A stretch of 33,935 nt of DNA from Gammaproteobacteria bacterium 13_2_20CM_66_19. GTDB lineage: Bacteria > Pseudomonadota > Gammaproteobacteria > Steroidobacterales > Steroidobacteraceae. A program made the position numbers and the translations under genes. Under the pieces are notes generated by a model that saw only the letters and a list, made by a program, of their open reading frames with translations, did no database searches and was not told where the DNA came from. This document shows, piece after piece, positions 785-27,125 of the stretch. The stretch covers positions 1 to 33,935 of the forward strand of contig MNCZ01000098.1 in assembly GCA_001914695.1 (NCBI GenBank). The letters run 5' to 3'. The stretch's first letter is position 1; every line of letters begins with the position of its first letter.

Positions 785-900
785 CGGCGTATTGTACGAA
801 ATACTTGACTGCGCCACTAACCGAATATTGCCTGTTCCACACAGGCTCGATTCCGTTGTCCGCTTCGCGCTTCCTCTGCGAGCACCTGCACCAGAATCTC
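785..900 (-). ncRNA. Putative omega RNA scaffold and guide at the tnpB right end
   Basis: In this family the omega RNA overlaps the 3' end of tnpB, ends at the element boundary and takes its guide from the flanking DNA. Here the terminal hairpin GCCTGT-GTGGA-ACAGGC (830-846), the tnpB stop (817-819) and the GTCAA boundary (805-809) are in the expected order, so the guide would be about 20 nt at 804-785. The 5' end is arbitrary. This is an inference from family architecture; no promoter or conserved omega RNA fold was verified. Confidence 0.4.
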
Positions 901-2164
901 TTCCGGGCATGCATCTCCCGCATCCACGCGCAGGTCCCGGTCGTCACGACCGGCCAGCTGGCGAAGACCCTCCGCCAGCAGATTCCGTGCGGCATTGACA
1001 TCGCGGTCGTGCAAGGTCCCGCATTTCGGGCACTTCCACTGCCGCTCATCCAGCCGCAACTCATCGAGCGTGTGCCGGCATGCCGAGCAGGTCTTGCTCG
1101 AGGGGTACCAGCGATCCACCTCGACCAGGATCTTGCCGTACCACTCGCCCTTGTAGGCCAGTTGCCGGCGCACCTCGCTGAACGCCACATCATGGATCGC
1201 GCGGGCGTGTATCCCCCGACCCAGCCCCTTGACGTTCAGGTCCTCGATACAGATCAAATCGAAGTCTCGCACCAGACGCGTAGTAAGCGCGTGCAGGGCG
1301 GCCTGACGCTCTTGCCTCACGTGCGCATGCGCCCGTGCTACCCGCAGCCGTTGCTTCTCACGCCGCCGACTGCCTTTCTGCCGTCGGGCAAGACACCGCT
1401 GCTGCTGACGCAGGTATCTGAGGCGGGCGCGGTAGCGCTTGGGATTCGGGATCTTCTCCCCCGTCGAGAACGCCGCTAGATCCTTAAGTCCCAGATCCAC
1501 CCCCACCAGGCGGTGCGTGATGGGCAACAACGATGTCTCAACTTGCGAACAGAAGCTCACGTGGTAGCGCCCCGTGGCGTCGCGCGAGAGCGTCATCAGC
1601 CCCGGTCGCTCGACTTCAGGGAGCGATTCGGCGAGCTTCAGCGCACCGAGCTTAGGCAGAGTCACCAGCCCGCGCGCCCAAGCCGCCCCCACACCCTGAA
1701 ACCGCAGACTCCCGGAGGTGCTTTTCCCTTTGAACCGGGGGTAACGAGCACGGCGGGCGAAGAAGTTGCGAAATGCCGCATCCTGATCGCGCAGGCACTT
1801 AGTGAGACACGTTGCGGGCACCTGTGCGAGCCACTCGTGGCCCGGGGTTCTCTTCCACTGGGTCAGCCAGCGCGAGACATCATTCCCCGTGAGCGTAAGT
1901 CCGCACTCGCGGTACGCCTCGGAACGGATGGCGAGAGCCGTGTTCCAAAGCCAGCGAGCCGCGCCGAACCATCGGTCGAGCAGCCGGCGCTGAGCGCCGT
2001 TCGGATAGGCTCGAAGGCGGTAGCTTCGCGTGACCGTTCTGATCTGACAATTATATCCTGCCACCAAGTCACTCGCGGGCGAATTCAACGTGCGTTCGTA
2101 TAACAACCCGCGTGGGCGGTAAGAACATACATCCTGCCGCGCTTAAGGGTTAAGCCGACGGGTT
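805..2164 (-). mobile_element. tnpB-only IS200/IS605-type element
   Basis: The element carries only tnpB; no Y1 transposase (tnpA) is present. The proposed left end follows a TTGAC pentamer (minus strand, 2165-2169), a target/TAM sequence known for members of this family. Close to it is a perfect hairpin GCTTAA-CCC-TTAAGC at 2141-2155. The proposed right end is GTCAA at 805-809, preceded by a hairpin GCCTGT-GTGGA-ACAGGC at 830-846 that lies within the end of tnpB. Subterminal hairpins without terminal inverted repeats or target duplications are the family's hallmark. The exact ends are inferred from these signals and not from an empty-site comparison. The insertion lies between the M23 peptidase gene and secA. 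Confidence 0.62.
817..2106 (-). CDS. tnpB: TnpB, RNA-guided endonuclease of IS200/IS605 family
   Basis: The protein has 429 residues from a TTG start. It shows the helix-turn-helix-like N-terminal region (RLRAYPNGAQRRLLDRWFGAARWLWN, about 31-56) and a split RuvC nuclease: D204 in GVDLGLKDL, E288 in ICIEDLNVKG and D369 in HDRDVNAARN. A zinc finger of two CxxC pairs (C340/C343 and C359/C362) lies between the second and third RuvC motifs. All catalytic residues are present, so it looks intact. TnpB proteins are known to cut DNA next to a TAM using an omega RNA copied from the element's right end, which helps the element persist. The TTG at 2106 is the first start; a GTG at 2064 would give an N terminus closer to typical TnpB. 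A TATAAT is present on the minus strand at 2050-2055. Confidence 0.93.
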   Translation of the reverse strand: MLYERTLNSPASDLVAGYNCQIRTVTRSYRLRAYPNGAQRRLLDRWFGAARWLWNTALAIRSEAYRECGLTLTGNDVSRWLTQWKRTPGHEWLAQVPATCLTKCLRDQDAAFRNFFARRARYPRFKGKSTSGSLRFQGVGAAWARGLVTLPKLGALKLAESLPEVERPGLMTLSRDATGRYHVSFCSQVETSLLPITHRLVGVDLGLKDLAAFSTGEKIPNPKRYRARLRYLRQQQRCLARRQKGSRRREKQRLRVARAHAHVRQERQAALHALTTRLVRDFDLICIEDLNVKGLGRGIHARAIHDVAFSEVRRQLAYKGEWYGKILVEVDRWYPSSKTCSACRHTLDELRLDERQWKCPKCGTLHDRDVNAARNLLAEGLRQLAGRDDRDLRVDAGDACPEEILVQVLAEEARSGQRNRACVEQAIFG

Positions 2165-2290: not shown

Positions 2291-2326
2291 GATCGCGGCA
2301 CGCCCAAACGGAGCGTGGCCGCGATC
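2291..2326 (-). terminator. Strong hairpin at the stop codon of the M23 peptidase gene
   Basis: On the minus strand GATCGCGGC(C)ACGC pairs with GCGTGCCGCGATC around a 9-nt loop, giving a 13-bp stem with one bulged C. The stem starts inside the TGA stop codon. There is no U-tract after it, so it is either a weak or Rho-assisted terminator or an mRNA 3'-end stabiliser. The remainder of 2165-2290 shows no gene. Confidence 0.45.
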
Positions 2327-3242
2327 AGTGGCCGATGAAGGAGAGCGGATTCACCTGGCGGCCGTTGCGCAGCACTTCGAAGTGCACGTGCGGTCCGGTC
2401 GAGCGGCCGGTCGAGCCCATGAGCGCGACGGACTCGCCGCGCTTCACCATCTGGCCGACGGCGACCAGCGTGCGCTGGTTGTGGGCGTAGCGGGTGACGT
2501 AGCCGTCCCCGTGACTGATCTCGACGAGCTTGCCGAAGCCCGAGCGCTCGCCCGCCCAGGTGACCACGCCTTCCGCGACCGCGACCACCTTGTCGCCCAT
2601 CGCACCGGCGAAATCCACGCCCTTGTGGAAGGCCTCGCGGCCGTCGAAGGGGTCGGCGCGCTCGCCGAAGTAGGAGGAGATGAAGCCGCGGGCGACCGGG
2701 CGCCCCTCGGGATGAATGTCCTCTTTCAGCTCCTGCGCGAGAATGACGTTCTCGAGCGCGGCGAGCTGCGAGTCGCGCAGGTTCACGCGTTGCTCGAGCT
2801 GCGCGAGCATCTGCGTGAGATCGGGGATCCCGGCGCTCACGCCCTCGCCGTCGTTCTCGGGCCCGCCGCTCGGCGGGGCGACGTCGAAATTGAACTCGCG
2901 GCTGTCGATGTCGGCCATCTCGGTGAGGCGCCGGCCGAGGGCATCGAGCCGGATGACGTGCGCATTCATCGCACCGAGGCGCATCGCCATGGCGTCGACG
3001 CGCAGTTGCAGCTGTTGCTTGAGGTCTGCGAGCTGCTTCTTCTGCTCGGCCAGGACGTTCCCGAAGCGGGGAATGTCGGAGAGCATGCCGCGCTGGTGGG
3101 CGCCGAGGCCGTACTGGAGGCCGAGTGCGAAGGCGCCGCCGAGAACGAGCAGTGTCAGCGCCGCCACCACGCTCAACGTGAGCGGCCGCGCGAGATTCAG
3201 CTGTCGCGCCTTGCCCTTGCGTCTCAGGAAAATGATGTTCAT
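2325..3242 (-). CDS. Membrane-anchored LytM/M23 family peptidoglycan metallopeptidase
   Basis: The 305-residue protein has a basic N terminus, one membrane segment (about 20-42), coiled-coil-rich stretches (about 64-110 and 143-173) and a C-terminal M23 domain (about 185-303). The zinc and catalytic residues are in place: H206 and D210 in HKGVDFAG, H254 in YAHN, and H285/H287 in HVHFEV. That makes it a plausible active endopeptidase cutting peptide cross-links, anchored in the inner membrane and facing the periplasm. Homologues lie next to secA in Pseudomonas-type genomes. ATG at 3242 is the natural start. The 5' leader carries a c-di-GMP-I riboswitch, so expression is probably tied to the second messenger. 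An activator role through a degenerate site is unlikely because all ligands are conserved. Confidence 0.93.
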   Translation of the reverse strand: MNIIFLRRKGKARQLNLARPLTLSVVAALTLLVLGGAFALGLQYGLGAHQRGMLSDIPRFGNVLAEQKKQLADLKQQLQLRVDAMAMRLGAMNAHVIRLDALGRRLTEMADIDSREFNFDVAPPSGGPENDGEGVSAGIPDLTQMLAQLEQRVNLRDSQLAALENVILAQELKEDIHPEGRPVARGFISSYFGERADPFDGREAFHKGVDFAGAMGDKVVAVAEGVVTWAGERSGFGKLVEISHGDGYVTRYAHNQRTLVAVGQMVKRGESVALMGSTGRSTGPHVHFEVLRNGRQVNPLSFIGH

Positions 3243-3282: not shown

Positions 3283-3347
3283 CGCCAGCTGGGGTCTACG
3301 AGCCATGCCCGAGCGTTAAGCGCCCTGTTCTCTTTCGAAACTCGATA

Positions 3348-3436
3348 CCATGCTGGCAACCCCGCTGTCATAGCTCCTCGCTTTAGACCGGTGGCTTTGC
3401 GTCCCCGCCTTTCGGCGGGTTTGCCCATTAGCAGCA
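3348..3436 (-). promoter_or_regulatory. Cyclic-di-GMP-I (GEMM-I) riboswitch
   Basis: Read on the minus strand, the leader contains the conserved GEMM core in order: GGGCAAACC, a six-pair P2 stem CCCGCC closed by a GAAA tetraloop (3404-3419), GGGACGCAAAGCC, then GGUCUAAAGC...GCUAUGACAGC (tetraloop receptor and P3) and GCGGGGUUGCC. P1 is closed by UGCU (3433-3430) with AGCA (3354-3351). These are the signature elements of the Vc2-type aptamer, and the G at the usual ligand-contact position suggests c-di-GMP rather than cGAMP, subject to alignment. The aptamer lies about 105 nt before the M23 peptidase ATG and is transcribed with it. It is antisense to the DNA just before dciA. Confidence 0.92.
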
Positions 3437-3444
3437 AGGGCAAT

Positions 3445-3810
3445 ATGCCGAAGAAGATGGCACGAAACAAGCGTGGCAGATCGGCAATGAGGACTGCGGC
3501 AGGTCCCGGCCGCACGCGGACTCATTCTGTAAAGGAGCTTTTGTCAAGCGGCGCGCCCGCTCTGACGCGCGTCACAGATCAGGCCGCGCGCGCGAGCTTC
3601 TGGAGCGGCTGGCTGTGTCGTCATCTGCCGACAGACCTCGCGCCCACCGTATCCGGCGTCGTCGAGCGCGAGGGCACGCTCGTGATTTTCGCGGCCTCGG
3701 CGGCCTGGTGTGCGCGGCTGCGTTACGCGCTCGAGGAGCTCGAGCCCGAGATCCGTGCCGACTTTCCCGCGCTCACCGCGATCAGCGTGCGTGTGCGTCC
3801 GCGCGGCTGA
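3445..3810 (+). CDS. dciA: DciA-like protein (DUF721), replicative helicase loader family
   Basis: The C-terminal part carries the DUF721 pattern: a helix-rich region around WLCRHLPTDLAPTVSGVV, then GTLVIFAASAAWCARLRYALEEL and an ending TAISVRVRPRG. DciA proteins recruit or load the replicative helicase DnaB in bacteria that lack DnaC, and the gene commonly sits between lpxC and the secA-linked M23 gene in gammaproteobacteria. From the ATG at 3445 (preceded by AAGGGC) the protein has 121 residues. A GTG at 3391 would put the start inside the riboswitch and is unlikely; an ATG at 3487 is also possible. The gene is convergent with lpxC, with 20 bp between the stops, and divergent from the M23 gene. 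Confidence 0.78.
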   Translation: MPKKMARNKRGRSAMRTAAGPGRTRTHSVKELLSSGAPALTRVTDQAARASFWSGWLCRHLPTDLAPTVSGVVEREGTLVIFAASAAWCARLRYALEELEPEIRADFPALTAISVRVRPRG

Positions 3811-26736: not shown

Positions 26737-27125
26737 GAGAGTCGGCCGGGCAGTCGCTGCCTCCGCCAGCGATGGCGGGAGCGGAGGAAAGTCCGGGCTC
26801 CGGCGGATCGGGTGCCAGGTAACGCCTGGGGGGCGTGAGCCCACGGAAAGTGCAACAGAGAGCAGACCGCCCAAGTCCCTCGCGGGACCGGCAAGGGTGA
26901 AACGGTGCGGTAAGAGCGCACCGCGTCGGTGGCAACACGCGACGGCACGGTAAACCCCACCTGGAGCAAGGCCAAATAGGGAAGCCGCGCCGGTCCTTTA
27001 AAAGGGGCCGGCGCAGCGCTGATCCGCGCGCGCTTCCGGGTAGGCCGCTAGAGGTCCACGGTGACGGGGACCCCAGAGGAATGACCGCCCTCGACAGAAC
27101 CCGGCTTACAGGCCGACTCTCACTC
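26737..27125 (+). ncRNA. rnpB: RNase P RNA, bacterial type A
   Basis: This is the catalytic RNA that matures tRNA 5' ends. The ends pair as P1 (AGAGTCGGCC at 26738-26747 with GGCCGACTCT at 27111-27120). Conserved blocks follow in order: GGAGGAAAGTCCGGGCTCC, GGTGCCAGGTAACGCCTGG, AGTGCAACAGAGAGCAGACC, AAGGGTGAAACGGTGCGGTAAGAGCGCACC (in 26894-26925), GGCACGGTAAACCCC, GGAGCAAGGCCAAATAGG and CGACAGAACCCGGCTTA. Length and layout are those of type A molecules. Short ORFs across this region are not genes. Confidence 0.97.

Follow-up and report, generated by a model that had tools for sequence, protein, structure and literature searches.

The leader of a secA-linked M23/LytM peptidase gene in Gammaproteobacteria bacterium 13_2_20CM_66_19 very probably carries a genuine c-di-GMP-I riboswitch, which would match the quantity of this wall hydrolase to the c-di-GMP level of the cell. 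As a sensor it is a typical representative of a class already known; what is new is its conserved M23 target and a base change specific to that site. It lies in the window, by which we mean the whole 33,935-nt stretch of contig MNCZ01000098.1 that was analysed. When the whole window was compared with all of Rfam using cmscan, RF01051 (the c-di-GMP-I, or GEMM-I, family) and RNase P were the only families matched at gathering level. The RF01051 model was aligned over all of its positions, 1-87, running from 3435 to 3352 (E 1.5e-14; gathering score 35). This significant, full-length match on the minus strand bears out a preliminary description of the DNA, which had placed all the GEMM-I core elements there and suggested the covariance-model search; the limits it gave, 3348-3436, lie 1-4 nt from those of cmscan. 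The RNase P RNA, of bacterial class A, is found on the plus strand at 26738-27124 (293 bits).

Within the alignment, the window aptamer has both a GAAA-capped P2 (CCGAAAGG loop) and a UCUAA/UAUGA tetraloop receptor in P3, with a single non-standard pair close to the tip of P3 (cmscan). The ligand-contact bases equivalent to G20, A47 and C92 of Vc2 are also present in the alignment, where we take A47 and C92 to be the Vc2 numbers of those contacts. The P1 strands, UGCUG and CAGCA, are able to pair in the window, but the stem score did not exceed that of partner shuffles, which scored equally high in 172 of 2000 cases with 28 sequences and in 389 of 2000 with 10 sequences. The receptor bases had previously been read as differing from Vc2 in a paired way that suggested covariation. 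The bases are there as described, and the special covariation is rejected: the motif is the Rfam family consensus (guCUAA ... uAuGac), and the receptor pair is U-A in 26 of the 28 aptamers that we found before M23 orthologues and U-G in the other two.

The aptamer ends 109 nt from the M23 ATG and lies on the same strand, which gives it a sense placement in the predicted 5' leader (Table 1). Riboswitches of the c-di-GMP-I class are standard on genes for pili, adhesins and secreted proteins, and the Vibrio cholerae elements Vc1 and Vc2 are presumably members of this class (GEMM-I, RF01051). The window element resembles the class in the whole of its aptamer (GAAA-loop P2, P3 receptor, core, 3' strand and G20) and in its placement before a surface or envelope gene. 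Two things set it apart: its target is a secA-linked M23 peptidase, with a site that many members of the order have kept, and no intrinsic terminator was seen in its leader.

Table 1. Features of the M23 locus, in window coordinates.
Feature	Position	Strand	Evidence or remark
TnpB/OrfB (IS605-type) gene, between M23 and secA	817-2106	-	
secA-linked M23/LytM peptidase, C-terminal M23 domain	2325..3242	-	PF01551 118.2 bits (cut-off 28.7)
Leader, aptamer end to M23 start codon	3243..3351	-	no intrinsic-terminator-like site
Conserved hairpin GGGCG-CUUAA-CGCUC, candidate part of the expression platform	3311..3325	-	covariation, 13 leaders
c-di-GMP-I (GEMM-I) riboswitch aptamer, RF01051	3352..3435	-	cmscan 80.7 bits; G at the Vc2 G20 equivalent
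-10-like box CATATT, directly 5' of aptamer	3442..3447	-	present in 21 of 28 M23-linked leaders
dciA-like gene, divergent	3445..3810	+	PF05258 26.6 bits (cut-off 24)

By our reading, the window peptidase begins with an N-terminal membrane segment. No variation is seen across 21 aligned M23 proteins in the residues for metal binding and catalysis (H206, D210, H254 and H287), and the solved structures related to its M23 domain belong to M23 enzymes, the best being 3slu (E 1.6e-23), with ShyA at E 5.2e-22. A tblastn comparison of 52 M23 loci located secA downstream of M23 in 50 of them, lpxC upstream in 44 and dciA in divergent orientation in 34. In several families (f7, f8, f10, f11 and f15 among those carrying the aptamer) tblastn picked up no dciA, and some loci end at a contig edge. 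The secA match starts 34-388 nt past M23 in 49 of the 50 loci and 1038 nt past it in the remaining one (G026). At the window locus the SecA match (361.8 bits) starts downstream of M23, beyond the TnpB gene, which is seen at this locus only among the 52. The placement of M23 between lpxC and secA is common to relatives with and without the aptamer. Sub-cut-off matches to the Xoo8 sRNA (RF02243) occur at the outer, lpxC-side end of several loci (L058, L061, L062, L076, L079 and others). On the other side of the window aptamer, the dciA start codon (3445-3447) adjoins its 5' end. The dciA and M23 leaders probably overlap head to head across the aptamer (3352-3447), and the dciA mRNA may carry the aptamer in antisense.

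Following a suggestion in the preliminary description, the aptamer was sought before orthologous secA-linked M23 genes in a sample of 60 genomes of the order, the window's own included. RF01051 is present somewhere in 53 of the 60 genomes and an M23 orthologue in 52. The aptamer was found upstream of M23, on the same strand, in 28 of the 51 genomes with readable upstream sequence, spread over nine families: 16 of 30 in the window's genus, with the window's genome among them, and 12 of the 21 that belong to the order's other families. The rest of the 51 comprise one genome with a decayed remnant (G039) and 22 with no aptamer; because so many genomes, including 14 of the 30 in the genus, lack the element, we consider it dispensable. 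The 51 do not count second copies of M23 (L086-L088), the weak match G049:C128 or L042, which is truncated and lacks upstream sequence. The remnant in G039 occupies the orthologous place (L071 1740-1633, minus strand) and scores 24.6 bits.

The curated Rfam gathering score is reached by 26 of the 28 M23-linked aptamers, those of the window and L037 among them, and the other two match RF03167, of the same clan, at 50.1 and 43.3 bits (E 8e-9 and 7e-7; cut-off 59). These Rfam scores are independent of R1, a model that was built from the same 28 sequences. The window aptamer is nearly identical to those of its close relatives despite diverged flanks. Run on the best 80 M23 loci among the matches listed for named genomes, R1 detected an aptamer before M23 in six (55-88 bits): Woeseia OFTM247, a Woeseiaceae MAG, J054, BROCD033, palsa_1213 and a MAG labelled Rhodospirillales. 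The last of these is identical to G038, which leaves five of the six as new, and a seventh match (L155) is weak, at 12 bits, and located elsewhere. Among these 80 loci, R1 gave no match in those of Nevskia, Marinobacter, Cellvibrionales, Halieaceae, Methylophaga or Burkholderiales, and none in L104, which closely resembles G028 in its DNA. Family f7 is placed with the Woeseiaceae because the Woeseiaceae M23 and the one in G042 share 89% identity.

The survey was widened to 369 Gammaproteobacteria, with 11 candidates scored per genome for RF01051, which was detected in at least 67 genomes; an M23 orthologue (E 1e-60 or better) was present in 207. Aptamer and M23 are adjacent in all four genomes of the order that have both (G000, G042, G050 and G333), and the aptamer lies within 3 kb of M23 in none of the 38 (of 63) aptamer-bearing genomes outside the order for which M23 coordinates were listed. 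On a maximum-likelihood tree of 83 M23 proteins, the trait requires 7 changes, versus 25.8 with shuffled labels; G039 was counted as a carrier, which is generous given its decayed copy, and L108 (identical to G038) and L110 were left out. The tree puts 32 of 33 carriers inside one 54-row group with moderate support (84/91), and one clade of 14 from the window's genus is without the aptamer. The exception is L134 (BROCD033), on a long branch and without an order label, and because of it we describe the link as largely, not strictly, confined to the order. An early gain of the M23-linked aptamer, then losses, would fit these patterns best. As far as such comparisons can tell, the link appears to be old, mostly restricted to one gammaproteobacterial order and lost repeatedly.

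In the proposed mechanism, transcription would start directly 5' of the aptamer, where the -10-like box is placed. In the window and in most of its genus, the CAT of CATATT lies opposite the ATG that starts dciA. Families f7 and f10 (four genomes: G042, G056, G045 and G058) retain the box with no opposite ORF of at least 60 aa starting there, and for this reason we favour its reading as a -10 box. A scan of the leader for consensus sigma-70 promoters found none on the minus strand and did not pick up the box. The scan for intrinsic terminators also found none on the minus strand of the leader, and on this ground such a terminator was rejected as the expression platform; the plus strand has two terminator-like sites, the same number as in shuffles. 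Since no intrinsic terminator was seen, ligand binding would alter either translation or Rho-dependent termination. Masking of the ribosome site by the bound aptamer was rejected as well: 15 leaders folded with and without the aptamer gave no consistent effect or trend (mean -0.006; lower when bound in 6 of 15). The aptamer fold costs these 15 leaders a median of 2.1 kcal/mol over the unconstrained fold.

Of the 16 carriers in the genus, 13 were used to assess the hairpin between the aptamer and the M23 start codon; G032, G035 and G036 were left out, their leaders differing at this place. Across the 13 leaders, 84.6% of cells are paired, versus at most 43.6% in slid versions, and between 0 and 2 of 500 shuffles are equally high. 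Both-sided changes occur in three of the six pairs, and 8 of the 13 leaders do not form the innermost pair.

Four RF01051 matches occur in the genome that holds the window (3.14 Mb, 83% complete). Besides the one before M23, they precede pilM, a gene for a protein with a DUF11 stretch, and an unassigned gene that has a TPR gene after it. The genome also has 27 GGDEF matches, two of them within one ORF, so that c-di-GMP signalling is expected. From these matches and the G at the selectivity position, we infer that the ligand in this genome is c-di-GMP. Aptamers of the genus also recur before a second target, which encodes one cluster of proteins about 500 aa long (L007, L015, L016, L089-L098 and others). 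This cluster makes up 26 of 42 first downstream ORFs, at loci that are not a random sample, and some of its members have sub-cut-off SPOR-domain matches.

An A at position 20 (Vc2 numbering) is the hallmark of cGAMP-I (GEMM-Ib) riboswitches, and all four aptamers of the window's genome, that of the window among them, have G at this position. Elsewhere, the M23-linked aptamers are divided: six of the 28 (G001, G016, G017, G019, G045 and G058), in about four separate places of the tree as judged by eye, carry A. None of 82 other aptamers of the order does so (G in 74 by script and in 8 by eye), a comparison set that includes 20 aptamers from the six A20 genomes and that is biased towards G, as it consists of listed, mostly high-scoring matches. 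Fisher's test of A versus G, with related sequences counted singly, gives p 0.007 for the 33 resolved rows and 0.0003 with 42 more. We offer only tentatively, as a rather unlikely reading, that the M23-linked aptamers form a separately evolving branch of the c-di-GMP regulon, in which about four lineages have exchanged G for A at this site and wall cleavage has been wired to another signal (cGAMP, or both) or to another c-di-GMP threshold than pili and adhesins. The window would then represent the c-di-GMP-reading state.

It is improbable that the window aptamer itself senses 3',3'-cGAMP, or both cyclic dinucleotides, instead of c-di-GMP. The A-bearing orthologues would favour this, as would the standing of position 20 (G20 in Vc2), named in the part of PMC9262584 available to us as a factor in the selectivity between cyclic dinucleotides and not a hard filter; the G shared by the window aptamer and its three companions argues against it. 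In Geobacter, GEMM-Ib riboswitches control, among others, the pilMNOP genes and an operon called lipoprotein transpeptidases, according to the portion of PMC6456294 that we draw on. They have the same fold as the M23-linked aptamers and share A20 with the six orthologues, and the window aptamer differs from them in having G20.

We give similarly little weight to the element working mainly for a neighbour of M23, either the divergent dciA, through an antisense RNA to its leader, or secA, through read-through. The dciA start codon does adjoin the aptamer, with 5' leaders that probably overlap, and c-di-GMP riboswitches show the highest tendency to antisense placement (PMC9943018, in the section used here), but all 28 aptamers are in sense to M23, transcription of the aptamer would lead away from the dciA coding sequence, and f7 and f10 keep the element where no such opposite ORF starts at the box. 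As for secA, it follows close behind M23 in almost all loci, but the TnpB gene intervenes in the window, and because of this we judge read-through secondary; the element probably does not serve mainly to control secA. Least probable is a decayed, non-functional aptamer retained by chance: the remnant in G039 and the several losses implied by the tree show that decay happens, but the window core is intact and its sequence is preserved among close relatives whose flanks have diverged.

A c-di-GMP-I riboswitch acting on M23 is our preferred reading, and several known systems touch on it. In Erwinia, EagA is a MepM-type M23 endopeptidase that supports aggregation and biofilm and whose gene cluster responds to c-di-GMP; the abstract describes its c-di-GMP pathway as yet to be characterised, and both mentions of riboswitches in the paper, as far as its text was accessible, concern C. 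difficile (PMC7705223). The window shares with EagA the M23 domain and, by prediction, a link to c-di-GMP, whereas the eagA gene differs (znu operon, LysM domain). High c-di-GMP may turn the M23 gene on, a direction that we slightly prefer to off only because the Erwinia enzyme promotes aggregation and biofilm when c-di-GMP is high. In C. difficile, the c-di-GMP-I riboswitches include two in prophage host-lysis regions, according to the passages of PMC3649979 covered here; the riboswitch class is the same as in the window, but the genes and the phylum differ. The open-access literature, covered mostly through title listings and with the original GEMM target lists outside this scope, yielded no GEMM riboswitch on a secA-linked M23 gene, and the portions covered of PMC12452182 and PMC8835794 held no passage bearing on one.

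The observation made in the preliminary description was right, and its interpretation, which put wall cleavage under second-messenger control, was largely right as well. Given a convincing sensor before M23, and the same sensor in the same place in many relatives, the M23 wall enzyme is probably coupled to the transition between a swimming and a settled life, as far as genome comparison can indicate. Bacteria that alternate between swimming and attached life must reshape their wall too, and to our knowledge the route from the c-di-GMP signal to the wall enzymes is poorly mapped. A riboswitch kept before one LytM-type peptidase across many members of the order would provide a direct, testable wire from c-di-GMP to such an enzyme. 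The site-specific change between G and A would also provide a natural series for how a riboswitch shifts its ligand or its threshold at one gene.
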